This document shows positions 13,801 to 62,306 of a DNA stretch of 64,000 nucleotides, piece after piece; within the stretch, counting starts at the first letter, position 1, and every line of letters begins with the position of its first letter. A program made the position numbers and the translations under genes. Below the pieces are notes generated by a model. The model was not told where the DNA came from, did no database searches, and was given only the letters and a program-made list of their open reading frames with translations. This stretch comes from Sphingobacterium thalpophilum (GTDB lineage Bacteria > Bacteroidota > Bacteroidia > Sphingobacteriales > Sphingobacteriaceae), in contig CAMCTU010000001.1 of assembly GCA_945878525.1 (NCBI GenBank), positions 18,504 to 82,503 on the forward strand. The letters run 5' to 3'.

Positions 13801-14015
13801 CTTTAAACTATAACTTACCTGCTAAACTAATTAAGACTGCCTATTTGAGTAATTTAAGCCTGAATGTTTCTGCACAGAATCTTATAACATGGACAAATTA
13901 CTCAGGTATGGACCCTGAAGTTTCTACCCGTAATAACACCTTGACTCCAGGTTTTGACTATTCGTCCTATCCAAAGTCACCAACAATTGCCTTTGGAATT
14001 AAAGCAGGATTTTAA
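10839..14015 (+). CDS. SusC/RagA-family TonB-linked outer membrane protein
   Basis: Carboxypeptidase-like N-domain (ITGTVLEAGQPLPGVTVRVKGTNRGTTT), plug SEVVVIGYGTVKKPDLTGSV, DGFPVENPDPASINPEEIESMTILKDASSTAIYGSRAANGVILIQTKRG. Confidence 0.95.
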   Translation: MLKIYMMKFKKQSYYTSGAGIVMLLMLLLSFSDQALSQQLKSITGTVLEAGQPLPGVTVRVKGTNRGTTTLANGKYSIEAANNETLVFAFLGMVTQETVVGNRSTVNVTLQVSSASLSEVVVIGYGTVKKPDLTGSVGVVPMDDMMKAPVGTFAEALAGRVAGVKVNASDGQPGGGINIVIRGAGSLTQSTAPLYVIDGFPVENPDPASINPEEIESMTILKDASSTAIYGSRAANGVILIQTKRGSVGKPVVNFSSSYGIQEMPKAMEVMSPYEFIKYQTELNPLIATTRAFFAGGKTLEDYKSAAGVNFQDYVLQQGAIQNYNLALRGGTDQTKYSISGSLFDQIGSIINTGLNRYSGRATLDQNISNKIKAGVTVNYSGIKQYGQVINQGAVTQGNPTAFALARAWLYRPISPNPNDDLLADAVDDDALNASDFRVNPFIDLQNQHSFNITNLVETNGYLSYEINKNLNIQSNAGIRHNKLTLERFYNSKTAQGGPSPNNVNGVNGSISNLFSNSFSNETTLNYKKTFKKDHTITGLGLFAINSNNTNTKGYAGRLLPNENLGMDGLEEGLAFNPVSSSSVNTMASYAGRLDYNYKSKYIVTGTFRADGSSKFRDHWGYFPGAALAWNMHKEGFFAKLLPGVSTSKIRSSYGSNGNNRVGDFDTYARLLQSVNGYSFNNGTPIASNSVSSIGNPDLAWEKVTTIDLGYEIGILKDRVVLEMDLYRKTTENLLLNAILPSSTGFGSAVKNIGKLRNDGLEFTLNTVNVQTKDFSWESNLNISFNKNKVMELTRGQRALTSNSDYVSQFNKPLYVAEIGKPAGMMIGFIWEGNYQYSDFDNPSPGVYILKPSVPTNGAVRNTILPGDIKYKDINGDGIMNDADLTFIGNGQPIHTGGFSNNFNYKAFSLNVFFQWSYGNDIYNANRLIMEGNSNGWANINQFASYSNRWTPENPTNANYRTRGQGPIGFHSSRVVEDGSFIRMKTVSLNYNLPAKLIKTAYLSNLSLNVSAQNLITWTNYSGMDPEVSTRNNTLTPGFDYSSYPKSPTIAFGIKAGF

Positions 14016-14034
14016 TTAAATTAATCTTAAGAAA

Positions 14035-15849
14035 ATGAAAGTAAAATATTTATTAATCGCAATACTTTTCTTAACGAGTTTAGGCTCTTGTAAGAAATAT
14101 CTGGAAACAGAACCAACTGATTTCCTTAATCCGAAAAACTATTATGAAACTGAAGCACAGTTGCAATTTGCGCGTGCTGGGGTTTATCATCATCTAGGTG
14201 CAGGTAACCTTCATGGTACTTATGCTAGTTATCTTCTTGCATGGCATGGTGATGAAGGCTATATGAACAGGGCTACATTGACTACTGGTCCTTGGAATTA
14301 TTTCTATTCTTCTGCAGATCAGTATAATAATGGTTTATGGTCTAACCTTTGGCAAGGAATAAATAAAGCCAATGTTTTGATTGCCAATGTGGATAAAAAT
14401 CCAGCTATTGCCCAGTCTAAGCGCGATGCAATCAGGGGTGAAATGCTATTCCTTAGAGGTTATTATTACTTCACTCTTGTTCAATATTATGGTGGTGTTC
14501 CATTGAAACTTACTCCTACAACATCAGTTATTGATGTTGAATCTACTAGAGCGCCCGCAAAGGATGTTTATTTGCAAATCTTAAAAGATATGGAAGCAGC
14601 TGAAAAATTAGTCCCAAGTATTAAAACTTTAGGCTATGGAGGCGCTATCAGTAAGTCGGCAGTTCGTGGGCTATTAGCGCGTGTGAACCTGCACATGGCT
14701 GGTGCACCCATTAAGGATGCTACTAGATATGCAGAAGCTAGCAAATGGGCAAAAATGGTAATAGATGATGCAGAGGCTGGTCATTCACTTAATCCAAGCT
14801 ACTCACAAATATTCATTAATCTGGCTGCCGATAAATACGATATCAAAGAAAGTATCTGGGAGGTTGAATTTTATGGAAATGGTCTTGATCAATATGTGGA
14901 AACCGGAAATATAGGATGGATTAATGGTCCTGCGGCTGCTGTTTCGTCGCCAACTGGAAGGGCTGATGCCTACATGAACATCACATCTGAACTCTATAAT
15001 GCATTTGAACCTGGTGATAATAGAAAATGGTTCAGTATTGCTCATTTTACTTATACTGGTACAGGCGCCAAAACAATGAGTTTATTGCCTGTTTCAGAAG
15101 ATGCAAAAAACAATTTAAAGCCAGCAAAATGGAGAAGAGAGTATGAAACTTTATTGCCGAAAAGTCCAACAAATACTCCTATAAACATGGTCCTTCTTAG
15201 ATATTCAGATATTCTTTTAATGTACGCTGAAGCACAAAATGAAATAAATGGTCCAACTGCTGAAGCTGTAGCAGCATTTAATCAAGTAAAAAGAAGAGGG
15301 TGGTCAACAGGAATTAAAGCCATCAGCATTACTAACGGCGGTGCTGGATATACTACTGCTCCAACTGTAACTTTTAGTGGTACCGGAGGTGCTACAGCAA
15401 CTGCTACTGTAACCGCTGGAAAGGTTACAGAAATAACTTTGGATCGTGATCCTGCTGCAATTACCTTTTTCAATGAGGGTAAATATACTACTGTTCCTAC
15501 AATTACGCTTAGCGGTGGAGGAGGTTCTGGAGCAACAGCAACAGCAACAATCTGGAAATCAACTGATGGAGATATAAATCCTACATCCAAAACAGCCTTC
15601 TTGGAAGCCATTCAAGTTGAAAGAATGAGAGAGTTCAACTTTGAAAATACAAGAAAAGCTGATTTACTTCGCTGGGGAATATTCTTAAAAGTACATCAGG
15701 ACATGGGTAATAAATTACAGCAGCAAAGTCCAGGTCAATATTTTGTTAAGTATTATTCAAATGTTAGTGCTAGAGATCTTTTGATGCCAATTCCTATCAA
15801 TGAAATGTCTTCAAACTCAAAAATGACACAAAATCCTGGTTGGGAATAA
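14035..15849 (+). CDS. RagB/SusD-family nutrient-uptake lipoprotein with an internal Gly/Thr-rich beta-repeat insertion
   Basis: Lipoprotein signal ...LGSCKKYLETEPTDF; SusD features LFLRGYYYFTLVQYYGGVPL, RYSDILLMYAEAQNE, VERMREFNFENTRKADLLRWG. Confidence 0.93.
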   Translation: MKVKYLLIAILFLTSLGSCKKYLETEPTDFLNPKNYYETEAQLQFARAGVYHHLGAGNLHGTYASYLLAWHGDEGYMNRATLTTGPWNYFYSSADQYNNGLWSNLWQGINKANVLIANVDKNPAIAQSKRDAIRGEMLFLRGYYYFTLVQYYGGVPLKLTPTTSVIDVESTRAPAKDVYLQILKDMEAAEKLVPSIKTLGYGGAISKSAVRGLLARVNLHMAGAPIKDATRYAEASKWAKMVIDDAEAGHSLNPSYSQIFINLAADKYDIKESIWEVEFYGNGLDQYVETGNIGWINGPAAAVSSPTGRADAYMNITSELYNAFEPGDNRKWFSIAHFTYTGTGAKTMSLLPVSEDAKNNLKPAKWRREYETLLPKSPTNTPINMVLLRYSDILLMYAEAQNEINGPTAEAVAAFNQVKRRGWSTGIKAISITNGGAGYTTAPTVTFSGTGGATATATVTAGKVTEITLDRDPAAITFFNEGKYTTVPTITLSGGGGSGATATATIWKSTDGDINPTSKTAFLEAIQVERMREFNFENTRKADLLRWGIFLKVHQDMGNKLQQQSPGQYFVKYYSNVSARDLLMPIPINEMSSNSKMTQNPGWE

Positions 15850-15870
15850 CATTAATTCAAATTAGAAATT

Positions 15871-16944
15871 ATGAAAATTAAATTATATAGCATTGTAGCA
15901 GCGGCCTTATTGATGGCTTCCTGCGAAAAGCCCACTATTGAAGCAGAGGCTCCGGTTTTTGATGTTAATACTGAAAAAGCGACCTATAAAGTAGGAGAGA
16001 CCATTAAATTCATGATTATTGGTGGTGAAACACAGAATATTTCTTTTTATTCTGGAGAGTTACTTAAGGATTATTATTCAAGAACTGGACGTGTGGTTGA
16101 TGTTGTGGGTGCTGGAGCAAATCTTACCTTCAGCAGTAGCGTTCAGTTAGGAACACAGGCTGATCAAGTAACACTTTTGGCATCAACTAATTTTTCTGGT
16201 GATTATTCTAGCCTTGCTAAAGTAAAAGCGGCTACATGGGTAGATATTACCAGCAGATTTAAATTAGGTACAAGTGCAACCTTACTTACTTCGGGTACAG
16301 TTAATATTTCTGACTTATTACTTGCCGGAAAACCAATCTATTTTGCTTTCCGTTACAATACAAAGTCTCAAGCTGTCAGTGGTGTTAATCGTCAATGGTT
16401 TATTCAGTCGTTCACTGTTAATAGCCTTAAATTACTTAATAATACGCTAGCTCTAACTATTGCAGATCAGGCTAGTGCGGGCTTTAGAATTGTAGATGAT
16501 TTAAAAGATAAAGCTCCTGCATTGTCTTCAGTTACTGCAACTAGATTAACGCTTCAGGGCAATACTTATCTGACTGCAGGCCTACCTCAGTTTAATCCTG
16601 CTAATCCAATTTTTGATCCTAAGAATGTAATATATAATCCACAGGATCCGGCATATCAGCCTTCAGCTGTTTATAAGCCATTTGTTGCTTTTGATCCAGC
16701 TAGTCCATTCAATGATCCTATATCTGAGCATTGGGCTATAAGTAAAGGGATATCTATTGACAAGGTAGATTTAGGACCAGATTGGTCATTAGCTATTAAA
16801 GGATTAACAAATCCCGTATTACCAGAATACCGTTATTCGTATCCTGTTGCAGGTACTTTTAAAGCCGTTTTTGTTGCCTCAAATGGTAATATTGATCAAA
16901 GTCGTGAAGTTACTAAAGAGATTACTCTTACAATAACTCCTTAA
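15871..16944 (+). CDS. DUF5017-like SusE-position surface lipoprotein
   Basis: Lipoprotein signal LLMASCEKP; FDVNTEKATYKVGETIKFMIIGGETQNISFYSGE; directly follows SusD. Confidence 0.75.
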   Translation: MKIKLYSIVAAALLMASCEKPTIEAEAPVFDVNTEKATYKVGETIKFMIIGGETQNISFYSGELLKDYYSRTGRVVDVVGAGANLTFSSSVQLGTQADQVTLLASTNFSGDYSSLAKVKAATWVDITSRFKLGTSATLLTSGTVNISDLLLAGKPIYFAFRYNTKSQAVSGVNRQWFIQSFTVNSLKLLNNTLALTIADQASAGFRIVDDLKDKAPALSSVTATRLTLQGNTYLTAGLPQFNPANPIFDPKNVIYNPQDPAYQPSAVYKPFVAFDPASPFNDPISEHWAISKGISIDKVDLGPDWSLAIKGLTNPVLPEYRYSYPVAGTFKAVFVASNGNIDQSREVTKEITLTITP

Positions 16945-47471: not shown

Positions 47472-47618
47472 GTGGATTCAATCACTCATATAGCTTTTGG
47501 TGCTTGCATGGGTGAAGCTTTTTCAGGTAAACAATTAGGGAAAAAGGCACTGCTTTGGGGCGTAATGGCTCAGAGCATCCCTGACATTGAGTTCATAGCA
47601 GCAGAGAGTGTAAAATAA
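47472..47618 (+). pseudogene. Truncated N-terminal fragment of a DUF457-like (YdjM-type) membrane metal-dependent hydrolase
   Basis: VDSITHIAFGACMGEAFSGKQLGKKALLWGVMAQSIPDIEFIAAESVK* matches only the N-terminus of that family and stops at 48 aa. Confidence 0.65.
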
Positions 47619-47685
47619 TCTGTTTTACTAAGTTAATATTCTAAATTGTGACACAGTTTATTTTACATTCTCCTCTTTCCTGAAA

Positions 47686-49644
47686 TTAAGTAGATACCTT
47701 TTGAGTTTTATTTCTATAAATTTTCCTTAGTTGATAAATAAGCAATGTTAAATCAATTGGTTTTGTTAGAAATTCGTTCATTCCGACTTTTATACATGCT
47801 TCCCTATCTTCATTAGCCGAATTTGCAGTTAAGGCAATGATAGCTGGCTTTTTTCCAAATATTTTTCTAATCATTCTGGCACTTTCAAGACCATCTAAAT
47901 TTGGCATTTGAACATCCATGAGAATCAAATCATAATTATGATGTTTCATCATAGTTAATGCATCCATTCCATCATTTGCAAGATCAGGAGCATAACCAAG
48001 ATTTTTCAATAGATTGAGTATTACTCTTTGATTCATTTGATTATCCTCCGCTACAAGAATTTTAAATGGATGTTTTTCGGCAAAACTTTTGCTGATAATT
48101 TTATCACCTTCAAAAGATATGTGCTTGTTAGTAACAACCAAATTGTCAATTTCCTCTAAATACCCCGTTTTATAATCTATGCTAAAATTGACTTTTGTTC
48201 CGTTTCCAGGACTACTTTCAATCTGAATAGAACCGCCCATCATTTTAACAAGTCGCTGACAAATTACTAATCCTAATCCGGTTCCCCCATGTTGTCTTGT
48301 ATTGGATGAATCTAATTGATGAAAAGCTTTAAACAAATTATTATGTTGGTCTTCCGATATACCAATGCCGGTATCAATGATCGAAAAAACAAGTTGAGTT
48401 TTATTTTCGGTTTCAGAACTATGCTCATTTACCTTAAGAATTATCTCTCCCGTAAAAGTAAACTTAACAGCATTCCCCAAAAGATTTATAAGAATTTGTC
48501 GTAAACGTAAACGATCACCTATTATGTTTTTAGGAGTATTTTCACTCATTTCAAATCGCATGAGCAATTTCTTTTCTTTGATACTTGGTTGAAAAATTAT
48601 CAAAACATCCTCAAAACATTTTTGAAGAGAAAAATTATGTTCCTGCAGCTCAATACTGCCTGATTCAATCTTTGAAAAATCAATCACGTCATTAATTATA
48701 CTTAATAAGGATTCACCGCTTTGTTTTATTGCCCTGGTAAATTCTAATTGCTCTTGATTTAGACTTGTTTCAGACAATAGTTTGGCCATACCAAGAACTC
48801 CATTAATTGGGGTATTTATTTCATGACTAATTGCAGCAAGAAAGGTGCTTTTGGCACGATTTGCCCTTTCAGCTTCTTTTTTCATATCCTCGGCCAGAAC
48901 TTTGGCATTATGTTCCTGAGTTTTATGCTGAAGTAGAACCTCTGATTGTTTTCGGATTTCCAAGTTTAGATTCTCTAGGTCGCTTGCTTGCTTTGATAAT
49001 TCAGATGTTCGTTCATAAACAAGTTTTTCCAGAGCTTTTTTCTGTTTTTGAACGATACGCATGTTGAACCAGAATAACAAATAGATTAATCCGATTAATA
49101 ACAGTAACAATATTATCCTAAACCACCATGTCAGCCAGAATGGAGGCTTTATGATGATCCTTAATCTTACTCCATCCTTGTTCCAAACATTATTATTGTT
49201 CGATGCTATTACTCGGAAGATAGATGTCCCAGGATCCAGATTGGTATAGGTTACTTTGCGCTCGTTTCCAACATAATTCCAATCCTTATCAAATCCCTCA
49301 AGTTTATAAGCATAAATATTATTCTCCGGCACTGAATTTTTTGTCCCTGACCAAAGATTTCCATCTTTATCTTCAGTGATGCTTCCAATATAGTTTGATG
49401 ATAAGGAAGTGCTTTTATTTTTTGAATGTTTGTAAACTTCAAATTTAAATCCATCGTAGCGATTCAAACCACCCTGTGTTCCAAACCACATTAAACCGAA
49501 TTTATCTTTATGATTACTTAGAATAGTATGCTTTGAAATTTCATTGCTACTGTTTATACTACTCAGATTGAAATTCAGTTTTTGAGAAAAAACCGGAATT
49601 ATCGAGAGGATAACTAAAAAGCAGTATAAAAATAATTTCTTCAT
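47686..49644 (-). CDS. Hybrid sensor histidine kinase with receiver domain; two-component-regulator propeller almost entirely missing
   Basis: N-terminal blade DKFGLMWFGTQGGLNRYDGFKFEVYKH then directly the Y_Y_Y domain (NIYAYKLEGFDKDWNYVGNERKVTYTNLDPG), TM, HisKA (FLAAISHEINTPINGVLGMAKLL), HATPase, REC (LVAEDNQMNQRVILNLLKNLGY). No AraC HTH. Confidence 0.85.
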   Translation of the reverse strand: MKKLFLYCFLVILSIIPVFSQKLNFNLSSINSSNEISKHTILSNHKDKFGLMWFGTQGGLNRYDGFKFEVYKHSKNKSTSLSSNYIGSITEDKDGNLWSGTKNSVPENNIYAYKLEGFDKDWNYVGNERKVTYTNLDPGTSIFRVIASNNNNVWNKDGVRLRIIIKPPFWLTWWFRIILLLLLIGLIYLLFWFNMRIVQKQKKALEKLVYERTSELSKQASDLENLNLEIRKQSEVLLQHKTQEHNAKVLAEDMKKEAERANRAKSTFLAAISHEINTPINGVLGMAKLLSETSLNQEQLEFTRAIKQSGESLLSIINDVIDFSKIESGSIELQEHNFSLQKCFEDVLIIFQPSIKEKKLLMRFEMSENTPKNIIGDRLRLRQILINLLGNAVKFTFTGEIILKVNEHSSETENKTQLVFSIIDTGIGISEDQHNNLFKAFHQLDSSNTRQHGGTGLGLVICQRLVKMMGGSIQIESSPGNGTKVNFSIDYKTGYLEEIDNLVVTNKHISFEGDKIISKSFAEKHPFKILVAEDNQMNQRVILNLLKNLGYAPDLANDGMDALTMMKHHNYDLILMDVQMPNLDGLESARMIRKIFGKKPAIIALTANSANEDREACIKVGMNEFLTKPIDLTLLIYQLRKIYRNKTQKVST

Positions 49645-50009
49645 TCGAAAAAAAAATATTCTACTTCAATAGTTATGCCCTAGTTACCTGCTACTTAGTT
49701 CATTTGATATGCAGGCAGCATTTTAACCTTTTCTTAGTATTATTTTGTATTTAAAAGGTTAATTTTAATATGAATTTTAGAAGCAATACTTTCATTTATT
49801 CTTTTTTTCTGGTATAAACTGTGCAATAAATTCTACATTATGTGTATTAAAGTACTCTTTTTTAGGAATATATTCAATAATTTAAAACAATAAAGGACAT
49901 TGAACCATTCAATTATATCAAGCCATATGCTAACGATGGATAATGTCATGTATTTAAAGAAGGATTGATTAACTTCAAACCATAATCAATTTATCTAAAA
50001 TCCAGATCA

Positions 50010-50479
50010 ATAGTGGTTCAATATTGCTCAGCCGAACATGCGGTCAAAGAAATAAAAAGTGGGCAGCCGGTTTTTGTACATGGAAGTGCCTCAACACCTA
50101 TGGCCCTTTTAAGGGCAATTTCAAAAGAAGCGATGAATTAAAAAAAAATGAACTGATAAATATCATTACCCTGGGGAATGATTTATTTTTAATGCCTGAT
50201 TTTGGGAAAAGTTTTTTTATAAATTCACTTTTTGTTTCTCAAAATGTGCGCGAAATTGTCAATAGACCTTCTGGAGATTATATTCCCATATTTTTAAGTG
50301 AAATACCTATCTTATTTTGGAAAGGAATACTTCCAATTGATTAGGCCTTCATCCATGTTTCACCGCCTGATAAGCATGGCTACGTCGTGACAGAATATAG
50401 TGCAGCCTATTTATTAGGTAAGAATTTAAAACAACGAGCTATGGCACTCATTACGATTTCACATCCCACGCATAGATAA
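50010..50479 (+). pseudogene. Acetyl-CoA hydrolase/4-hydroxybutyrate CoA-transferase pseudogene with internal deletion
   Basis: YCSAEHAVKEIKSGQPVFVHGSASTPMALLRAIS (frame 1), frameshift, ELKKNELINIITLGNDLF...NVREIVNRPSGDYIPIFLSEIPILFWKGILPID*AFIHVSPPDKHGY fused to C-terminal motif VVTEYSAAYLLGKNLKQRAMALITISHPTHR*. Confidence 0.85.
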
Positions 50480-50656
50480 TGTCTTGGTAATAAAATGATT
50501 ATCTAGATTTATTTGATCCTGAAACATATAAGAGATGTGTAAAATTATTATTAAAATGCTTTGTGTGCCTCATAAATAGTAAGATTAGATTGTAGTATTC
50601 ATTTGTATTACTATATTGGGGGTAAAATTAAATGCTTATAACTGTGAGGGTTTATT

Positions 50657-52981
50657 ATGAATAAAAGATTTATTTTTTCTCTTGTTGTCCTGGCAACTGT
50701 TTTATATGCTTTACAAGCCTGTAATTTTAATTCCGAAACAGCAAAATCTTCTGAGCATGTCCCGGATAAAATCAGTTATAATTTTGATATCAGACCAATT
50801 TTATCCGACAAATGTTTTAGCTGTCATGGCCCTGATGGAAACAAGAGAGAATCTGGTTTAAGGCTTGATATTGAAGAAAATGCTTTTGCGGCCTTGAAAG
50901 AAAATCCCGGAGCTCATGCCCTTGTTGCTGGCAAACCCAATTTGTCTGAAGCTTTCCTAAGGATTTCTACCAAGGATACAGTGTTGATGATGCCACCACC
51001 ATCATCCAACTTGAAGTTAACTTCCCATGAAATCAAGTTAATTGAAAAATGGATCAAACAAGGAGCAAAATACGAAACCCATTGGTCATTTTTACAACCT
51101 AAAAAGGCAAAACTTCCCGAACCGGAAGATCCGGAATGGGTAAAAAATGAAATTGACTATTTCATTTTAAGTAAAATGGAACAAAAAGGACTTAGTCCGA
51201 ACCCGGAAGCAAACAAAGAGTTTTTATTAAAACGGTTAAGTCTTGATTTGACAGGTTTGCCACCAGGTTTAGAATTAATGGATGCTTTTCTTGCTGACAA
51301 CAGTGCCACAGCATATGAAAAGGTTGTTGATAAACTCTTGAAAAGTCCGGCTTACGGCGAAAAAATGGCTCTTCATTGGCTTGATGTTGCACGATATGCT
51401 GATTCACATGGTTTTCAGGATGATAGCTACCGATCTCAATGGCCCTGGAGGGATTGGGTTATTCATTCATTCAACAAGAATCTACCTTATGATAAATTCA
51501 TTACTTATCAACTTGCGGGTGACCTAATTCCAAATGCTAGTAAGGAACAGATACTGGCTACCGGTTTTAATCGTAATCACAAAATAACCGAGGAAGGTGG
51601 TGTTGTTGATGAGGAGTATCGTGTTTCTTATGTTGTTGACCGTACCAATACCTTTTCGAAGTCCCTGATAGGGGTAACATTGGAATGCGCGCAATGCCAT
51701 GATCATAAATACGATCCGTTCTCACAGAAAAATTATTATCAATTATATTCATTCTTTAATAACGTTAAAGAAGTAGGAATTGAATCTACTGTTGCCGGTC
51801 CGGAAACTTATGCCAAGAAGCCTTTTATTGAAATTACTGATGATGAGATCAATAAGATTCTAAAGTTTATCAACAAAACTGACAGCAATAAGTTAATTGT
51901 ATCGGTTATGGGCGATCGGGATACTTTAAGAAAAACATTTATACTCGATCGGGGAGCTTATGATGCCCCTGGTGTTGAGGTATCTGCAGGAACACCGGAA
52001 TCAATTCTATCTTTTGATCCTAAATATCCAAAAAATAGACTGGGACTTTCACAATGGTTATTTGACAAACGAAATCCACTTACATCAAGGGTATTTGTAA
52101 ATCAACTTTGGAACGAGATCTTTGGACGTGGAATAGTAAAAACCGCAGGGGATTTTGGGATGCAGGGAGAGTTACCGACCCATCCTGAGCTGCTTGACTG
52201 GCTGGCTGTTGACTTTATGAATAATGGCTGGAATATGAAACGTCTTGTAAAACAAATGGTTATGTCTGCAACTTACAGGCAATCGGCAGTGATCAATTCT
52301 GATAAATTGAAGAAAGATCCTGAAAACGTATTTCTTTCAAGAGCACCAAGATACAGGATCAAAGCTGAACTTGTCCGCGATTTGGTATTGTCAAGCAGTG
52401 GATTATTGGTTAAAACAATCGGTGGTCCGAGTGTAAAACCCTATCAGCCTGAAGGTCTTTGGGAAAATGCCAGTTCGGGTCGTGGGATTTTAAGAAACTA
52501 TAAACAGGATCATGGCAATGATCTGTACAGAAGAGGAATGTATACTTTTATTAAACGAACAGTTCCTCCGCCTGTGATGGGTATTTTCGATGCCAGTAAT
52601 AGGGATCAATGTGAAGTAAACCGCTTGAAAACAAATACACCGCTTCAGGCATTGATCATGATGAATGATCCAACAGTATTGGAAGCATCAAGAGTTTTGG
52701 CAACAAAAATTGAGCAGCAGCCGTTACAAATGAAGGAAAAGCTGATTAAAACCTTCCGTTTAATTGTTTGTAGAAAACCAACCATAAAGGAGATTGAAGT
52801 TTTGAACTCTTATTATTCGGATCAGCTTGGGGTCTTCAAAAATCAGAAAAAGCGTGCTGAAAGTCTTTTATCAATAGGAGAGTATCCATTACCTCAAAAT
52901 TTGAATAAAAGTTCCGTTGCTGCATGGATGCAGGTGATTTCGGCTTTATATAATCTTGAAGAAACTATTACAAAAACTTAA
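50657..52981 (+). CDS. DUF1549/DUF1553 protein with N-terminal PSCyt1 cytochrome domain, lipoprotein
   Basis: YALQACNFNS lipobox; DIRPILSDKCFSCHGPDGN heme motif; LSLDLTGLPP; ARYADSHGFQDD; ECAQCHDHKYDPFSQKNYYQLYSFFNNV; NQLWNEIFGRGIV...GDFGMQGELPTHPELLDWLA. Confidence 0.9.
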   Translation: MNKRFIFSLVVLATVLYALQACNFNSETAKSSEHVPDKISYNFDIRPILSDKCFSCHGPDGNKRESGLRLDIEENAFAALKENPGAHALVAGKPNLSEAFLRISTKDTVLMMPPPSSNLKLTSHEIKLIEKWIKQGAKYETHWSFLQPKKAKLPEPEDPEWVKNEIDYFILSKMEQKGLSPNPEANKEFLLKRLSLDLTGLPPGLELMDAFLADNSATAYEKVVDKLLKSPAYGEKMALHWLDVARYADSHGFQDDSYRSQWPWRDWVIHSFNKNLPYDKFITYQLAGDLIPNASKEQILATGFNRNHKITEEGGVVDEEYRVSYVVDRTNTFSKSLIGVTLECAQCHDHKYDPFSQKNYYQLYSFFNNVKEVGIESTVAGPETYAKKPFIEITDDEINKILKFINKTDSNKLIVSVMGDRDTLRKTFILDRGAYDAPGVEVSAGTPESILSFDPKYPKNRLGLSQWLFDKRNPLTSRVFVNQLWNEIFGRGIVKTAGDFGMQGELPTHPELLDWLAVDFMNNGWNMKRLVKQMVMSATYRQSAVINSDKLKKDPENVFLSRAPRYRIKAELVRDLVLSSSGLLVKTIGGPSVKPYQPEGLWENASSGRGILRNYKQDHGNDLYRRGMYTFIKRTVPPPVMGIFDASNRDQCEVNRLKTNTPLQALIMMNDPTVLEASRVLATKIEQQPLQMKEKLIKTFRLIVCRKPTIKEIEVLNSYYSDQLGVFKNQKKRAESLLSIGEYPLPQNLNKSSVAAWMQVISALYNLEETITKT

Positions 52982-52983
52982 TC

Positions 52984-54435
52984 ATGCAAAAAGATTTTTT
53001 GGAACATGGATTAACATCTAATCGGCGTCGCTTCCTGTCAAGACTTAGTCTGGGACTTGGAAGTGCTGCTTTAGGTTCACTGCTGGTACCGGATTTATTT
53101 AATGGCGGCTCTGCAGATTCCGGACTTGCCCAGGGTATACCTCATTTCGCACCAAAAGCTAAAAGGGTAATTTATTTATTCCAGAATGGAGCACCCTCGC
53201 AACTTGAGCTATTTGATTATAAGCCTAAATTGAGAGAATTAGTTGGGCAGGACCTTCCAGCTTCGGTAAGGGGTACTCAAAGGCTTACCGGAATGACCGC
53301 AAACCAAAAGGCTTTTCCTATGGTTGGTTCATATGCGAATTTTAAGCAGTATGGTGAATCACGAAATTGGATTAGTGATATACTGCCTTATACAGCAAAA
53401 GTAGCAGATGATATTTGTATAATCAGATCGATGCATACGGAGGCCATCAATCATGATCCTGCATTAACCTTTTTTCAAACTGGTGCACAGCAGGGCAATC
53501 GACCAAGTATGGGTTCATGGTTGAGTTACGGACTTGGAAGTGAGAATAAAAATCTCCCTTCATTTACAGTATTACTTTCAAGAGGTAAAGGCAATAGTCA
53601 GGGTGTTTATTCTAAATTATGGGCCAGTGGTTTTCTTGACTCAATACATCAGGGAGTTCAATTCAGTAGTGGAGACGATCCGGTACTTTATTTAAATGAT
53701 CCTGATGGGATGAATAAATTTGAGCGAAGAAAATTTCTAGATCAGATATCTAAAATAAACCAGCTTTCTTATGAAGAATTTGGTGATCCGGAGATCAGTA
53801 CTAAAATTCAACAATACGAAATGGCTTACCGGATGCAAACTGCTGTTCCGGAAATTATGGATATATCAAAAGAGCCGGATGATATAATCAAATTATACGG
53901 TACAGATGCAATGACTCCCGGAACTTTTGCTGCTAATTGTTTACTTGCACGTAAGTTATCGGAAAATGGTGTTCGTTTTGTTCAACTCTATCATCAGGGC
54001 TGGGATCATCATGGTAATCTACCTACAGAAATAGCTTCACAAGCCAAAGATGTAGATCAGGCATCAGCTGCATTGATTACTGATTTGAAGCAAAGAGGAT
54101 TATTAGATGAAACATTGGTTATTTGGGGTGGAGAATTTGGTCGTACAAATTATAGTCAGGGAAACTGGACAGCAGAAAACTATGGTCGCGATCATCACCC
54201 AAGATGTTTCAGTATCTGGATGGCCGGTGGAGGTATTAAACCGGGCATTACATATGGTGAAACCGATGATTTAGGTTATAATATTGTTAAAGATCCGGTT
54301 CATATACATGATTTTCAGGCTACAGTTTTAAATCAGCTTGGTCTGGATCATGAAAAACTGATTTTTAAACATTTGGGAAGAAGATATCGCTTGACAGATG
54401 TTTCTGGTAAAGTAATCAGAGACATTTTAGCTTAA
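52984..54435 (+). CDS. DUF1501 family protein with Tat signal
   Basis: SNRRRFLSRLSLGLGSAALGSLL; KRVIYLFQNGAPSQLELFDYKPKL; LVIWGGEFGRTNYSQG..GRDHHPRCFSIWMAGGGIKPGITYGETDDLGY. Confidence 0.92.
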   Translation: MQKDFLEHGLTSNRRRFLSRLSLGLGSAALGSLLVPDLFNGGSADSGLAQGIPHFAPKAKRVIYLFQNGAPSQLELFDYKPKLRELVGQDLPASVRGTQRLTGMTANQKAFPMVGSYANFKQYGESRNWISDILPYTAKVADDICIIRSMHTEAINHDPALTFFQTGAQQGNRPSMGSWLSYGLGSENKNLPSFTVLLSRGKGNSQGVYSKLWASGFLDSIHQGVQFSSGDDPVLYLNDPDGMNKFERRKFLDQISKINQLSYEEFGDPEISTKIQQYEMAYRMQTAVPEIMDISKEPDDIIKLYGTDAMTPGTFAANCLLARKLSENGVRFVQLYHQGWDHHGNLPTEIASQAKDVDQASAALITDLKQRGLLDETLVIWGGEFGRTNYSQGNWTAENYGRDHHPRCFSIWMAGGGIKPGITYGETDDLGYNIVKDPVHIHDFQATVLNQLGLDHEKLIFKHLGRRYRLTDVSGKVIRDILA

Positions 54436-54443
54436 TTAATTTT

Positions 54444-55484
54444 GTGAATCAATTTATGAATAGAAGGAAATTTGTTCAGAATTCAGCAGCCGTTACTGCG
54501 GGTCTTTTGATAACTAAAGATTTATTTTCAAGGGATAAAGGTCCTGTTTATGGCCATAATGGTATGCAATATACCCTTGATACAACATGGGGTCAATTGG
54601 ATTCTTCGAAATATCCTGTGAAAGATTGCCATGAAATGGTTCAGGATAAAAAAGGCAGGATCATCCTTCTTACCAATGAAACTAAAAATAATATATTAAT
54701 TTACAATAAATCAGGTAAACTTCTTGAATCCTGGGGAAATGAATTTCCGGGTGGACATGGGCTTACATTGGCAGATGAAAATGGTACACAGTATTTATAT
54801 GTCACGGATACCGATAAGCACCAGGTATATAAAACTACCATGAGTGGAAAGATCTTAATGACCATTGATGTACCAATGGAAGCTGGAATTTATAAAAATG
54901 CAAAGGAATTTGTTCCCACAGAGGTTGCTGTTGATACAAACGGTGATTTTTTTATTGCCGATGGATATGGTGCACAATATGTTTTACATTATGATGCTTC
55001 AGGCAAACTCAAAGGTTATTTTGGGGGACGAGGTTCCAGTGATGAAAATTTAGATAATGCACATGGAATTGTGATCGATAGACGTCAGGCACAACCTTCT
55101 TTATTGGTGACTGATCGTACAAAGAATTGTTTTAAAAGATTCACTTTGGACGGTAAACTTCAGGAAATTATTAAGTTACCCGGAGCATGTGTATGTCGTC
55201 CGGTAATAAAAAATGATAACTTATACGCAGCAGTTTTGCGTTCTCCAAGTTTGTCGAATGCCGGTTCAGGTTTTGTGACGATTCTGAATAAAGAGAATAA
55301 AGTCGTTTCTAACATTGGTGGCACTGAACCAATTTACAACAAGGATTCTGAGTTGCAGACTATGACCCAGGCTGAAAAGATTTTTGTTCATCCTCATGAT
55401 GTATGTGTTGATGACGATGAAAATCTTTATGTTGCACAATGGGCCTCAGGTAAAGTTTATCCTTATAAATTTAAACGCGTATAA
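54444..55484 (+). CDS. NHL/6-bladed beta-propeller protein with Tat signal
   Basis: MNRRKFVQNSAAVTAGLLI; KDCHEMVQDKKGRIILLTNETKNNILIYNKSGKLLESWGNEFPGGHGL; HPHDVCVDDDENLYVAQW. Confidence 0.8.
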   Translation: MNQFMNRRKFVQNSAAVTAGLLITKDLFSRDKGPVYGHNGMQYTLDTTWGQLDSSKYPVKDCHEMVQDKKGRIILLTNETKNNILIYNKSGKLLESWGNEFPGGHGLTLADENGTQYLYVTDTDKHQVYKTTMSGKILMTIDVPMEAGIYKNAKEFVPTEVAVDTNGDFFIADGYGAQYVLHYDASGKLKGYFGGRGSSDENLDNAHGIVIDRRQAQPSLLVTDRTKNCFKRFTLDGKLQEIIKLPGACVCRPVIKNDNLYAAVLRSPSLSNAGSGFVTILNKENKVVSNIGGTEPIYNKDSELQTMTQAEKIFVHPHDVCVDDDENLYVAQWASGKVYPYKFKRV

Positions 55485-55502
55485 ATTCAATAAATAAATT
55501 CT

Positions 55503-57659
55503 ATGAAGATCAATCTGAAAGCGTATTCAGGTAATATTCTGTTTTTCCTTAACACACTGATTATCTTTTTATTGGTTTTCGAAAATGAATTGCTTATTCC
55601 TGAATGGCTTCAGCCTCTGGGAAGAATGCACCCATTATTACTGCATTTTCCAATAGTACTTTTACTCGTTTCTTTAGTTATGGAATTGTTCCGGACTAAT
55701 ATTAAAGATGAAAATCAGGATTTTTTTCAACTCATAACAAGCAGGATTATGCTGTCGGGAATCGTTCTTGCAGCTTTAACAGTTATAATGGGTATTTTTC
55801 TTTCAGTTGAAGACTCATATGAAGGTGGAAATGTATTAAGTTGGCACAAATGGTCTGGGGTTAGTATCGTCTTTCTTGCTTCTTTAATTTATATATCAAA
55901 GGGTTATACTTGGTACAAGGATATCATCGCAAAAGTCGGAGCAATTGTACTTGCTTTTACAATTGTACTTGCCGGTCATTTTGGTTCTGTTCTTACACAT
56001 GGTGAAAATTTCGTTTTGGAGCCAATTACAAAGGAACCCGTTGTGCCAATTGAACAGGCTATGGTTTATGATCATGTCATTCAACCAATTTTCCAGGAGA
56101 AATGTGTAAGCTGCCATAGTGCTGAGAAGCTAAAAGGGAATTTAAATCTGAGCGATTCAATTTCAGTAATGAAGGGTGGAAAGTCAGGAAAACTGTATGT
56201 TGCAGGAGATCCAAAGGTCAGTTTGATTTTGGAAAGAATTCACATGCCAATGACTGAGAAGAAGCATATGCCACCTTCCGGAAAGCCCCAGCTTAGTCCG
56301 GAAGATATAAGAATACTCTTTCAGTGGATTAAAAATCGCCCGGATTTCAAAAAAAGATTACTGGATCTGCCTCTTGATGATTCATTACGAATTATAGCTG
56401 CATCACGCTTCAAATCTTCAGAAAATATTGAGCAAGAATATGAATTTAATGCCGCAGATGATGAAACAGTAGAAAGCCTGAATACCTTTTATAGGATGGT
56501 TAGACCACTTTCAGTTGAGTCTCCTGCTCTTGCAGTGAGTTTTTTCAGTAGAAACGACTATAGTTCTAAATCGCTTGAAGAATTGGGAGACATAAAAAAT
56601 CAGATAGTCTCACTCCGACTTAGCAGAATGCCGGTTAAAGATGCTGATCTGAATTTTATCTCTAAACTCAAAGAGTTGCAAAAATTAGATTTGAATTTTA
56701 CTGATATTACTGGTAGCGGACTTGATGCTTTAAGTTCATTAGAGAAACTGCAGGTTTTATCAATTTCCGGGACTAAAGTAAAAATACATCAGCTATTGCC
56801 ACTAATGTCCAATAAAAACCTTCGTGAATTATCCATATGGAATACAGCCATTTCTGAAAAGGATGTTTTAAAGTTAAAAGCAGCCAACAAATCGCTGAAC
56901 ATTATTACTGGATTCAAGGATGATGGATCAACTTTAATTCAGTTATCTAAACCAACTTTAAAAAATAGTTCCAGGGTATTCACAAGTGGTGCTAATGTGG
57001 AAATCATTCATCCTATAAAAGATGTCTTTATTCGTTATACACTTGATGGATCCGACCCTGATAGTCTTAAGTCTCCTGTATTCAAAAATCAGATTCCTAT
57101 TACTAAAAATTCAACTATAAAAACAAAAGCATATAAATCTGGATGGAAGAGTAGTGAAATAAGCACTTTTACTTTTTCGAAATCAACATTCAAACCAGAT
57201 GATATCACTTTATTGAGTATAGCTGATATAAGTTTTAAAGGACATGGCACAAGGACATTGATCGACGGACAATTGGCAGATGCAGATATAAATCACACTA
57301 ATTGGCAGGGTTTCAAGGAAAAAGACATGATAGTGCTTCTTAATTTTAAAAAGTCGGTTCAGGTTAGTTCAACAGTATTAAATTCAATCGTGAATGTTAA
57401 TTCACCAGCTTTTCCCCCATCACGAATTGAAGTTTATGGTGGAACAGATCTTAATAATTTGAAGTTGTTAAATGCTTATGATCCTAAAATGCCGGGACAA
57501 AAAGATCCTCAGGAATTTAAGAAATATGAGATTAAATTTAAACCTACTTCAGTATCATATTTGAAAATTATTGCAAAACCTCTTAAAAAATTGCCTTCAT
57601 GGCATTCCGGGAAAGGGAAACCTGCTCTAATCCTTTTTGATGAGATACTTATTAACTAG
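55503..57659 (+). CDS. Multi-domain membrane protein: DUF2231, PSCyt1 cytochrome c, LRR-like, chitobiase C-terminal-like domains
   Basis: LGRMHPLLLHFPIVLLLVSLVMELF (DUF2231); IQPIFQEKCVSCHSAEKLKGNLNLS; LKELQKLDLNFTDITGSGLDALSSLEKLQVLSISGTKV; VFIRYTLDGSDPDSLKSPVF. Confidence 0.8.
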   Translation: MKINLKAYSGNILFFLNTLIIFLLVFENELLIPEWLQPLGRMHPLLLHFPIVLLLVSLVMELFRTNIKDENQDFFQLITSRIMLSGIVLAALTVIMGIFLSVEDSYEGGNVLSWHKWSGVSIVFLASLIYISKGYTWYKDIIAKVGAIVLAFTIVLAGHFGSVLTHGENFVLEPITKEPVVPIEQAMVYDHVIQPIFQEKCVSCHSAEKLKGNLNLSDSISVMKGGKSGKLYVAGDPKVSLILERIHMPMTEKKHMPPSGKPQLSPEDIRILFQWIKNRPDFKKRLLDLPLDDSLRIIAASRFKSSENIEQEYEFNAADDETVESLNTFYRMVRPLSVESPALAVSFFSRNDYSSKSLEELGDIKNQIVSLRLSRMPVKDADLNFISKLKELQKLDLNFTDITGSGLDALSSLEKLQVLSISGTKVKIHQLLPLMSNKNLRELSIWNTAISEKDVLKLKAANKSLNIITGFKDDGSTLIQLSKPTLKNSSRVFTSGANVEIIHPIKDVFIRYTLDGSDPDSLKSPVFKNQIPITKNSTIKTKAYKSGWKSSEISTFTFSKSTFKPDDITLLSIADISFKGHGTRTLIDGQLADADINHTNWQGFKEKDMIVLLNFKKSVQVSSTVLNSIVNVNSPAFPPSRIEVYGGTDLNNLKLLNAYDPKMPGQKDPQEFKKYEIKFKPTSVSYLKIIAKPLKKLPSWHSGKGKPALILFDEILIN

Positions 57660-57762
57660 TTTATACTTTTTATTAGGGAAATTATCCGCAAGGCTTGTTA
57701 GATTCTTTTTTAATAAGAGATAACCACGAATTAATCTGTTCCCGATTAATTGAAACTATTTT

Positions 57763-59214
57763 ATGTACAGTTATTCGACATACTTTCTTAAGCTTATTTT
57801 GACCAGTTTAGTTTTTTGCTTACTGCATGAAATAAGCTATGCAGTTAATGTAAGAGATTTTGGAGCCAAGGGTGATGGTAAAACAGATGATACAGGTTCG
57901 ATCGTAGCTGCCATATCCGGTTCAACTGATGGCTTAGTTGAATTTCCAAGAGGCTTTTATAGGATAACAAAAACTATTGACATTGATCTTTCAATTCACG
58001 GAACTCTTGGTCTTTCAGGGAAAGGAGCAAGTGCTAGCATCATTATGGCCGGAGAGGGTCCGGCATTCCGTTTTATTGGTTCCCATGATAAAGGTTCAGC
58101 TCAGCCTTCTTCAGTAAAGCCAATAACCTGGGAAAAAGAGCGGATGCCATTGATAGATGCCTTAGAAATAATTGGGGAGCATTTCAATGCGGATGGCATA
58201 GAGCTAAAAAATACCCTGATGCCTACTTTGAGGACATTATTAATCAGAAATGTGCGTAATGGGATTCATTTGACTTCCCGTAACCGGAATGTCTTGATTG
58301 ATGGATGTCACATATATAATAACAGCGGAATAGGAATCTATTTGGACAATGTAAATATCCACCAGTTTATAATTAGTGATAGCCATATTAGTTATTGTAA
58401 AAAAGGTGGAATTAGCGTACTAAACAGTGAGGTTCGCAATTTTCAAATTACAGGAAACGATATAGAATATAATTTTGATCCACTCGAAGGTTCTGCTGCA
58501 GATATTCTGGTAGATTGCTCAAAGGGTGGAAGTGTTCGTGAAGGAACCATATCAGGTAATACCATTCAGGCAATTCCAAGTCCGGGCGGTGCAAATATTC
58601 GATTTTTAGGCTTACCATCTAATCCAGATAAAATTGGGTTATGGAGCATTACCGGTAATCATATCAGTAATCAGGAACTTAATATTCATCTTGAATATAC
58701 ACGAGGTATAAGTATCACTGGAAATACCTTTATTCGTGGCTATAATCGTCATCTGCTTATCAATAATTCCAGTAATCTGATCATAAATGGGAATGTTTTT
58801 GATCATAATAAGGATTATTTTCCTTCGGTGCCTATTGCATATGGTGGTATTTTACTTAATAAGGGGGAGAATGTTATAATTAACGACAACATCATGGATG
58901 GTTCTGGAAATGGGGGTGAGGACAATGGAGGAGCAATGGTAATAAAAGATAGCCGGGAAGTTAGCATCATTGCTTGCCATATTAAAAATCCAATTTTCAA
59001 TGGAATTCAGTTCGAAAGTAGCACGAATTCACAGATAATTAATTGTGTGATCAGTGAAGGTGAAAAGAATAATGGGATGCTAAGAGGCCTCTTTTTGAAA
59101 GGACTTTGTAATGGAACTCTGGTAAAAGATAACAGTATATCTATTGGGAAAATAGCTGGAATTAGCAATGAAGCAAAGGATATTTTTCTTAAAGAAAATG
59201 TTTCTATTGATTAA
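57763..59214 (+). CDS. Right-handed parallel beta-helix protein (pectate-lyase-like fold), exported
   Basis: VNVRDFGAKGDGKTDDTGSIVAAI; repeated ITGNDI, ISGNTI, ITGNHIS, ITGNTFIRGYN, INGNVFDHN rungs. Confidence 0.85.
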   Translation: MYSYSTYFLKLILTSLVFCLLHEISYAVNVRDFGAKGDGKTDDTGSIVAAISGSTDGLVEFPRGFYRITKTIDIDLSIHGTLGLSGKGASASIIMAGEGPAFRFIGSHDKGSAQPSSVKPITWEKERMPLIDALEIIGEHFNADGIELKNTLMPTLRTLLIRNVRNGIHLTSRNRNVLIDGCHIYNNSGIGIYLDNVNIHQFIISDSHISYCKKGGISVLNSEVRNFQITGNDIEYNFDPLEGSAADILVDCSKGGSVREGTISGNTIQAIPSPGGANIRFLGLPSNPDKIGLWSITGNHISNQELNIHLEYTRGISITGNTFIRGYNRHLLINNSSNLIINGNVFDHNKDYFPSVPIAYGGILLNKGENVIINDNIMDGSGNGGEDNGGAMVIKDSREVSIIACHIKNPIFNGIQFESSTNSQIINCVISEGEKNNGMLRGLFLKGLCNGTLVKDNSISIGKIAGISNEAKDIFLKENVSID

Positions 59215-59234
59215 AATTTAACACCTAAACGGGG

Positions 59235-62200
59235 ATGAATCATAAAATTAAGCTCTTTTTGTCAGTTCTAATCTTGATTAACGGGCTGTATGCATGTAAT
59301 AACAATCAGGAAGGCCAAGCACCTGCAATAGAAGATATAGCCGCCAATGATGACGTTGCCCGATATATGGAAGCATTCAAAGGTCTTGGTGCACTAACTG
59401 ATTCAACAAAGCCCACTCAGCCTCAAAAAGCACTCAATGATTTCCGAATTCCCGATGATCTTAGCATAGATCTGGTCTTATCAGAGCCTGATATTGTTCA
59501 GCCTGTTGAGCTTAGTTTTGATCATCGCGGTAGGCTTTGGGTGGTTCAATATCATCAATATCCATACCCTTTGGGCTTAAAAGTCACCAGTGTAGATAAC
59601 TTTTTACGTGTACGATTTGATAAAGTGCCAGTTGCTCCTCCTGGGGGAATTAGTGGAGCAGACAAGATCAGTATTTTTGAAGATACAGACGGAAATGGTA
59701 CCTATGATAAATCAACCGTTGCTATTGATGGTTTAAATATTGCAACCAGTGTAATAACAGGACGAGGTAAAATCTGGGTATTAAATCCTCCATACCTACT
59801 TTCATATGATGATCCTGATGCAGATGGTTTGCCAGACGGATTGCCAAAAGTTCATTTAAGCGGGTTTGGACTCGAAGATACTCACGCTGTGGCTAACAGT
59901 TTGCGATGGGGGCCGGATGGTTGGTTGTATGGTGCACAAGGTAGTACCACGACTGCAAATATTAACTCTTCGGTATCGAAAAATATTACTTTTTCAGGCC
60001 AGGTGATCTGGAGATACAACATAGATACTAAAATTTTTGAAGTTTTTGCAGAAGGTGGTGGTAACACTTTTAATGTTGAATTCGATAGTAAAGGAAGACT
60101 TTATTCCGGGAATAATGGTTCAGACCGTGGTCCTTATTATAAGCAGGGAGGATATTATCCACGAAGTTTAGGAAAACATGGAACATATACAAATCCATAT
60201 ACTTTTGGTAATCTGGATAACATGGAACTTAAAGGAGAAAAAGTACGCTTCACCCATTCACTGATTAGGTATGAGGGTGGCAAATTACCTTCGGCTTATG
60301 AAGGTAAGATGATTGCAGTGAACCCTTTACTTAATTATGTTCAGTTAAGTCGTTTTGAAGCCAATGGATCCTCATTTAAGAATATTGATGAAAGAAAGAT
60401 AATAGAGACAAATGATCATTGGTTCAGACCCGTAAATATCAAAGCAGGTCCGGATGGCGCAGTTTATATTGCCGACTGGTATGATAGCAGGCTTTCACAT
60501 GTAGATCCTAGAGATACCTGGCACAAAAGTTCTGGTCGGATTTACCGCTTGCGTTCCAAAGGTGCCAGCGCCACACTTCCAAATTTTGATTTAAGTAAAT
60601 TAACAAACGCAGAGCTAATCAAAAAGCTGGGTGACAGAAACAAATGGTTCAGGCAGCAAGCTTTATTACAGTTTGCTAACAGAAAAGATAGATCAATAGT
60701 TCCCAGGTTAACAGCTATTTTAAAGGGTAATAACCCTGATCTTTCCCTGGAAGCATTATGGGCGATTAATCTGAGTGGTGGATTTAATGATAATCTTGCA
60801 AGCATTGGTCTTGAACATCCGGATCAATATGTGCGGGAATGGACTGTGCGTTTGATTAGCGATAAAAGAAAAATTTCATCTGCAATAGCCCAAAAACTAG
60901 CTATTATGGCAGAAAAGGAAAGCAGTTCATTAGTCCGAAGTCAGTTGGCAGCAAGTGCAAAAAGATTGTCCGGGATTTATGCAATTCCAATCGTAAAGAA
61001 CCTGATTAAATTTCATGATGATTCAAATGATCCAGATATTCCATTACTTATCTGGTGGGTTATAGAATCAAAATCTGAGTCTGATAGAGATCGCATACTA
61101 ACTATTTTTGAGGACAAAGCACTATGGCAGAAAAAGTTAGTTCAGAATTTCTTGATTAAGCGCTTAATGCAACGTTATATCTTATCTGCAGGAGAGGCAA
61201 ACTACAATGCTGCATCAAAATTAATTAGACTTTCTCCAGACAAACAAAATGCTAAAATCTTAATAAGTGGACTCCGTGAGGGACTTAGAGGTAAGGATGT
61301 AATTGGCTTATCAGCAGAACTTACCAAAGCAATTAAACCTTATCAATCGGAGCTTTTTGGCGCTCCACTGGCATTATCTATCAGGCAGGGAAACCAAAAT
61401 TCCGTAAATAAAGCACTTGATATAATCTCGGATGAAAAGGCTGATTTTGATCAGCGTTTATCCTATATAATAATTATGGGGCAAACAAATCAACCCAAAT
61501 CAGTACCCGTATTATTAGAAATAGTTGAAAGTAGTAAATCAACAGCTGCTATGAAAGAGGCTGCCCTTCAGGCTCTTCAACGCTACAATTTAGATGAAAT
61601 TGGGTTGAGAGTAGTTAAAGCATATCCACAGTTCAGAGGTGATATAGGCCTGAGGAATGCTGCTATGGACTTATTCGTCTCAAGGTCAACTTGGGCAAAT
61701 CAATTATTTATTGCTATTATGGAAACCAAAAGGATAAGCAAGGATGATGTTTCCGATCAGGTGGCTAGAAGATTAAAACTTCTTGATTATACTAAAATTA
61801 CTGCTTTGGCAGATCAATTATGGCCAAATGTGAAAATTTCAAGTTCAGCAGAAAAGAACGCAGCACTTGCTAAATATTCCAGAATAATTAAATCAGGTTC
61901 CGGGAATTTAAATAATGGCAGAACACTTTATTTAGCAAATTGTGGTTATTGCCATAAACTATTTAATGAGGGCGGTAACGTTGGTCCGGAACTAACCGGA
62001 TATGAACGTACTAATACGAATTACTTTTTATTGAATATTATTGATCCAAATGCAGATATCAGAGAAGGGTACGGTTTACACAGACTGGTAACAACGGATG
62101 GACGAACATTAGAGGGAAAAATTACCTCGACTAATGGAGATACTCATACCATTCAAACCCAAGCTGGTAAAGAGATTATACTTTCAATGAGACAAATCAA

Positions 62201-62306
62201 AGAAATGAAGGCATTGCCGGTATCCATAATGCCTGAGCGCCTTTTAGATCGATTAAATGATCAGGAAGTAAGGGATATTTTTGCATATATCATGAAAAAG
62301 AATTGA
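59235..62306 (+). CDS. PVC-type dehydrogenase propeller with HEAT repeats and C-terminal cytochrome c, lipoprotein
   Basis: INGLYACNNNQ lipobox; DDLSIDLVLSEPDIVQPVELSFDHRGRLWVVQYHQYPYP; C-terminal YLANCGYCHKLFNEGGNVGPELTGYERTNTNYFLLNIIDPNADIREGY. Confidence 0.9.
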   Translation: MNHKIKLFLSVLILINGLYACNNNQEGQAPAIEDIAANDDVARYMEAFKGLGALTDSTKPTQPQKALNDFRIPDDLSIDLVLSEPDIVQPVELSFDHRGRLWVVQYHQYPYPLGLKVTSVDNFLRVRFDKVPVAPPGGISGADKISIFEDTDGNGTYDKSTVAIDGLNIATSVITGRGKIWVLNPPYLLSYDDPDADGLPDGLPKVHLSGFGLEDTHAVANSLRWGPDGWLYGAQGSTTTANINSSVSKNITFSGQVIWRYNIDTKIFEVFAEGGGNTFNVEFDSKGRLYSGNNGSDRGPYYKQGGYYPRSLGKHGTYTNPYTFGNLDNMELKGEKVRFTHSLIRYEGGKLPSAYEGKMIAVNPLLNYVQLSRFEANGSSFKNIDERKIIETNDHWFRPVNIKAGPDGAVYIADWYDSRLSHVDPRDTWHKSSGRIYRLRSKGASATLPNFDLSKLTNAELIKKLGDRNKWFRQQALLQFANRKDRSIVPRLTAILKGNNPDLSLEALWAINLSGGFNDNLASIGLEHPDQYVREWTVRLISDKRKISSAIAQKLAIMAEKESSSLVRSQLAASAKRLSGIYAIPIVKNLIKFHDDSNDPDIPLLIWWVIESKSESDRDRILTIFEDKALWQKKLVQNFLIKRLMQRYILSAGEANYNAASKLIRLSPDKQNAKILISGLREGLRGKDVIGLSAELTKAIKPYQSELFGAPLALSIRQGNQNSVNKALDIISDEKADFDQRLSYIIIMGQTNQPKSVPVLLEIVESSKSTAAMKEAALQALQRYNLDEIGLRVVKAYPQFRGDIGLRNAAMDLFVSRSTWANQLFIAIMETKRISKDDVSDQVARRLKLLDYTKITALADQLWPNVKISSSAEKNAALAKYSRIIKSGSGNLNNGRTLYLANCGYCHKLFNEGGNVGPELTGYERTNTNYFLLNIIDPNADIREGYGLHRLVTTDGRTLEGKITSTNGDTHTIQTQAGKEIILSMRQIKEMKALPVSIMPERLLDRLNDQEVRDIFAYIMKKN

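Follow-up and report, generated by a model that had tools for sequence, protein, structure and literature searches.

In-frame excision of most of a periplasmic propeller from a Sphingobacteriaceae hybrid histidine kinase whose kinase half remains under selection

Architecture of the kinase

The stretch of DNA analyzed here (64 kb; hereafter the window) encodes a hybrid histidine kinase from which nearly all of the periplasmic propeller is missing (table 1). HisKA, HATPase_c, and a receiver lie in one chain, which makes the protein a hybrid histidine kinase, and a Y_Y_Y domain precedes the transmembrane helix, as in HTCS-type sensor kinases. A multi-blade propeller is absent, with one Reg_prop in the window protein versus seven in its orthologue. 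Pfam places Y_Y_Y directly against the single Reg_prop and then finds HisKA, HATPase_c, and Response_reg. At the junction, the blade end GNLWSGT is followed by two codons (AAA AAT) and then by the Y_Y_Y segment SVPENNIYAYKLEGFDKDWNYVG. The ORF, its orientation, and the junction agree with a preliminary description, which had placed the junction at 49310-49350 and had recognized that only the first blade or blades were left before Y_Y_Y; Pfam detects one Reg_prop, at aa 80-103.

Table 1. Features of the kinase gene and its immediate surroundings, in window coordinates
Feature	Position	Strand	Basis and remarks
Propeller-excised hybrid histidine kinase, 652 aa	47686..49644	-	ORF call and Pfam
Putative signal-peptide region, aa 1-20	49585..49644	-	Predicted N-terminal helix, aa 2-19
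Remnant of first propeller blade(s), ~aa 41-103	49336..49524	-	Pfam; homology to reference aa <=110
Reg_prop, aa 80-103, the only one in the kinase	within 49336..49524	-	Pfam
Excision junction, codons T101-K102-N103-S104	49333..49344	-	~627 reference codons absent
Y_Y_Y domain, aa 104-166	49147..49335	-	Pfam, E 1.2e-15; constrained; family tyrosine altered (Y141S)
Transmembrane helix region, ~aa 173-193	49066..49128	-	Predicted helix, aa 173-216; sequence WWFRIILLLLLIGLIYLLFW
HisKA, aa 264-329, with H274 in SHEINTP	48658..48855	-	Pfam
HATPase_c, aa 376-491	48172..48519	-	Pfam
Response_reg receiver, aa 529-636	47737..48060	-	Pfam; no DNA-binding output domain after it
5' remnant (68 codons) of a 340-aa membrane-protein gene	47472..47675	+	Comparison with relatives
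Acetyl-CoA hydrolase/transferase pseudogene (426-aa gene)	50010..50500	+	Residues 1-37, frameshift, 38-125, deletion, 381-420

The phospho-acceptor residues are conserved. In an alignment of 32 sequences, H274 (region 48823-48825) is invariant and D577 is near-invariant. The H-box, SHEINTP, has an asparagine at H+3, a position that is R or K in all 110 homologues examined, and this residue may mean that the activity of the kinase is altered. An AlphaFold model (pLDDT 78, pTM 0.43) confirmed the kinase fold and no more, as did a fold search; Y_Y_Y was modelled as a beta domain with moderate confidence. A single receiver is present in L066, L067, L068, and the window kinase, whereas the homologue consensus suggests two in tandem.

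By sequence, the kinase belongs to the same family as the BT4663-type propeller-Y_Y_Y HTCS of Bacteroidota (PDB 4a2l/4a2m; 3v9f; 3ott/3va6). The nearest solved structures are 4a2l/4a2m (BT4663) and 3v9f, and the best periplasmic match in the PDB is 4a2l, at E 1.5e-41 for the window protein and 9.2e-107 for a full-length orthologue. The order Y_Y_Y, transmembrane helix, HisKA, HATPase, and REC is retained, but ~627 propeller residues are gone and Pfam finds no C-terminal AraC-type DNA-binding domain, which is also absent from the full-length orthologues. A scissor-like movement has been reported for BT4663 (PMC8534201). Sensor kinases without extracytoplasmic sensor domains, which rely on membrane or intramembrane sensing, have been reviewed (PMC8534201), and like them the window kinase would operate without a large periplasmic ligand-binding domain. 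They are established sensory designs, however, whereas the window kinase is the product of excision of a large sensor, with remnants of blade and Y_Y_Y still in place. In the literature searched, HTCS kinases that naturally lack a propeller are not described.

Size of the excision and its occurrence in relatives

Syntenic orthologues were compared in four genomes of the same genus as the window, Daejeonella (Sphingobacteriaceae): G019 (NZ_JAUXXZ010000076.1), G009 (NCHA01000001.1), G004, and G007, encoding proteins of 1288, 1288, 1285, and 604 aa, respectively. The assemblies are all drafts, those of the named relatives being MAGs; the window genome (G000) is a draft of 3.07 Mb in 242 contigs. 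From Y_Y_Y to the C terminus, the G019 and G009 orthologues are 71% and 67% identical to the window kinase, and both share its single receiver. Unlike the window kinase, that of G019 (L066) has seven Reg_prop stretches that each pass on their own, with Y_Y_Y at aa 737-800. Alignment to the G019, G009, and G004 proteins shows that reference residues ~111-737 are absent from the window kinase, an in-frame loss of ~627 residues or ~1.9 kb that none of these full-length syntenic orthologues shares, and blocks upstream of the kinase gene show partial conservation with the intact orthologues. The preliminary description had put the deletion at probably well over 1 kb, with the frame kept and kinase, ATPase, and receiver apparently intact; the size is right, and the in-frame excision with intact domains is supported, as is selective retention of the kinase (see below).

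That description had proposed alignment to full-length paralogs. The excision is visible in such an alignment, but the comparators are orthologues: G000 has no full-length paralogue and no second protein similar to the Y_Y_Y part, and at E <= 1e-8 a Y_Y_Y search of this genome matches the window protein alone. Apart from the retained blade, nothing in G000 matches the excised segment, and propeller fragments elsewhere in G000 or G007 amount to weak single-blade matches.

Apart from the window and G007 proteins, no propeller-less Y_Y_Y kinase came up in the sets surveyed. Named genomes supplied 50 complete homologous Y_Y_Y kinases, of which that of G007 is the only truncated one. Three further early Y_Y_Y matches sit in proteins of 1269-1390 aa and are read as spurious, and three short Y_Y_Y frames, considered as propeller-less relatives among the matches listed in a family survey of 61 genomes, proved to be split genes or to lie at a contig end. 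No homologue with the window's junction was found among the 50 complete kinases or the matches listed in the survey. A propeller-less family sharing the junction, which had been raised as an alternative in the preliminary description, thus did not emerge, yet one orthologue has lost its propeller at a different junction.

Selection on the kinase and on the sensor remnants

To estimate selection, we fitted an MG94-type branch model for codons to five sequences; synonymous sites are near saturation, and branch omega values are therefore approximate. From the kinase to the C terminus, a single omega of 0.114 suffices. The window-branch kinase (omega 0.125) does not differ from the others (2 x dlnL 0.14), and omega = 1 is rejected on it (2 x dlnL 22.3, a cost of 11.1 log units); omega = 1 is likewise rejected for the G007 kinase (omega ~0.155, cost 10.4 log units). 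Pairwise NG86 estimates agree with the branch model. The kinase half of the window protein is under purifying selection, and it violates 9 of 92 near-invariant sites versus 7 of 92 in full-length orthologues. Raw protein branch lengths hinted at faster kinase evolution in the truncated copies, but normalized omega is unchanged and the idea was dropped.

The sensor remnants differ between the two truncated proteins. In G007, omega of the remnant is ~0.86 versus 0.128 elsewhere (gain of 11.5 log units, 2 x dlnL 22.9), a value not different from 1, and Y_Y_Y violates 10 of 17 near-invariant sites. In the window protein, the combined remnant has an omega indistinguishable from background. Its first blade shows an elevated omega (2 x dlnL 5.9 between nested models; gain of 2.9 log units once G007 is freed) and looks relaxed, at least partly, which suggests that the deletion is not brand new. 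Window-branch Y_Y_Y, at omega ~0.04, is constrained as much as the kinase or more; this fits a residual role and could equally mean that the deletion is recent. Were the ORF purely neutral, a stop would be expected to arise within ~2.5% of the window branch; with no stop in 652 codons, any neutral phase can have taken up no more than that. Neither neutral evolution nor a broken frame, the marks of a pseudogene, is seen, since the frame is open and omega = 1 is rejected for the kinase. Judged from these patterns, a long-standing pseudogene is excluded, and very recent inactivation, within at most ~2.5% of the branch, is possible.

A second propeller-less orthologue

The G007 orthologue (L068, Daejeonella sp. 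C8 bin.119) lies in the same neighbourhood and, like the window kinase, has lost its propeller in frame and keeps a constrained kinase. Its N-terminal part ends near YDG (reference ~aa 77) and the chain resumes inside Y_Y_Y near KDWNY, so both breakpoints differ from those in the window, and the stretch lost in G007 encloses the one lost in the window. In contrast to the window protein, Y_Y_Y is cut and neutral and the H-box is the canonical SHEIRTP. The broken, neutral Y_Y_Y argues that the G007 kinase may work without any periplasmic input.

The second excision is most likely independent of the first. The closest relative of G007 is G019, a full-length genome (rpoB identity 96.0% versus 92.8% to the window genome), and the kinase DNA tree places G007 with G019 and G009 (support 92/93). 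In AU tests, holding the window and G007 together gave p 0.046 for kinase DNA, p 0.02 for three linked genes, and p 0.0004 for those genes plus the kinase. The trees join G007 to a genome with a full-length gene and not to the window, favouring two independent excisions. Alternatively, the window and G007 may have inherited a single ancestral excision, which G007 would later have trimmed further, while recombination would have restored a full-length gene in the G019/G009 lineage. The nesting of one deletion in the other is in line with this, the mosaic synonymous divergence along the window implies that recombination occurs, and by AU tests on kinase protein alone the grouping is acceptable (p 0.107-0.167). 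Nevertheless, the tests on kinase DNA and on the kinase plus three linked genes count against a shared excision, which also requires an extra restoration event, and we consider it improbable.

Decay around the kinase

The window is otherwise colinear with relatives, and it is around the kinase that material has been lost. Between the remnant of the 340-aa gene and the kinase, ~6 kb is absent, including the mlaE/F/D-like genes of relatives and, relative to G019 and G009, a TonB-dependent receptor gene; the rest of the 340-aa gene is also missing. The pseudogene at 50010-50500, upstream of the kinase, has an internal deletion of ~255 codons and has no other copy in the genome. The locus is, by comparison with relatives, an apparent deletion hotspot.

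Co-loss of the TonB receptor with the propeller was considered and rejected. Only in G019 and G009 is the kinase directly followed by the receptor gene. Both truncated genomes are without it, but so is G004 (in the sense of having no 91%-type orthologue), in which the kinase is full length; the G019/G009 lineage may have acquired the receptor.

Synonymous divergence to G009/G019 mostly rises from ~0.4-0.7 to 1.3-2.3 in two blocks, 10839-16944 and 47686-62306, the second of which starts exactly at the deletion boundary. These blocks suggest mosaic ancestry. Within the second, at 50657-57659, planctomycete-type DUF1549/DUF1553 genes with PSCyt1, and DUF1501 genes, occur in a Bacteroidota genome and are conserved in relatives.

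Origin and function of the truncated kinase

The explanation we favour, with a probability of roughly 0.6, is that one clean in-frame deletion of ~1.9 kb removed the propeller from blade 2 onward and that the kinase was kept, unlinked from the propeller ligand. What is left is a putative signal peptide, part of a blade, Y_Y_Y, the transmembrane helix, HisKA, HATPase, and the receiver. The truncated protein would stay a membrane-anchored dimeric hybrid kinase that is no longer gated by a propeller ligand and whose kinase/phosphatase set point is fixed, although Y_Y_Y or the membrane may modulate it. Phosphoryl groups would pass via its own receiver to an unlinked phosphotransfer partner. The set point may be either high (constitutive) or low (phosphatase-biased), between which sequence cannot distinguish; the preliminary description had suggested a signal-blind or constitutive kinase, or one that senses through Y_Y_Y only. 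Retention would follow if basal phospho-flow is useful once the original ligand response has become dispensable. Against this explanation stand the decaying neighbourhood, the asparagine at H+3, and a constraint on Y_Y_Y that fits a recent deletion as well.

The gene losses around the kinase make decay in a deletion-prone locus, an alternative not raised in the preliminary description, a serious rival, and the main one, for the window copy alone. Here the deletion would have been in frame by chance (one in three), with the ORF unbroken so far and the protein inert. The adjoining pseudogene, the truncated 340-aa gene, the missing mlaEFD-like genes, the unusual H-box residue, and a genome of 3.07 Mb versus 4.1-4.3 Mb in close relatives are consistent with early decay. 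We regard it as rather unlikely, given purifying selection on the window-branch kinase with little room for neutral drift, relaxation of the blade remnant and not of the kinase, and, in G007, neutral evolution of the sensor next to constraint on the kinase. It is doubtful, too, that the protein has become a sensor through Y_Y_Y and the transmembrane helix, responding to the membrane, a periplasmic partner, or a mechanical or oligomeric state. The low omega of Y_Y_Y and its predicted beta fold would suit such a role, but a recent deletion would leave equal constraint, and G007 keeps its kinase despite a broken, neutral Y_Y_Y. Moreover, Y_Y_Y connects propellers to the membrane in solved relatives, and we know of no Y_Y_Y that binds a ligand. 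Finally, a repetitive propeller could have been collapsed during short-read assembly; blades are repeats, G000 is fragmented, and its named relatives are MAGs. This is very improbable, as the blade and Y_Y_Y sequences at the breakpoints share <=5 bp in intact orthologues and no k-mer in common, no leftover propeller contig exists, and the remnants have diverged, neutrally in G007, which a collapse cannot yield. The preliminary description had named such a collapse as an alternative.

Implications

In the usual view, sensor kinases acquire new sensors, exchange them, or vanish together with their stimulus. The two truncated orthologues raise the possibility, to which we give somewhat less than even odds, of repeated, selected sensor shedding, in which a propeller hybrid kinase became sensor-less twice independently in one genus and was kept in a ligand-blind form. 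If so, the kinase/phosphatase core would contribute to fitness in its own right, apart from the signal it evolved to read. As syntenic in-frame excisions that both spare a constrained kinase, the two would amount to a natural experiment on the behaviour of a large-propeller hybrid kinase deprived of its ligand, and would supply ready-made minimal constructs for asking if kinase activity is stimulated or held back by the propeller.
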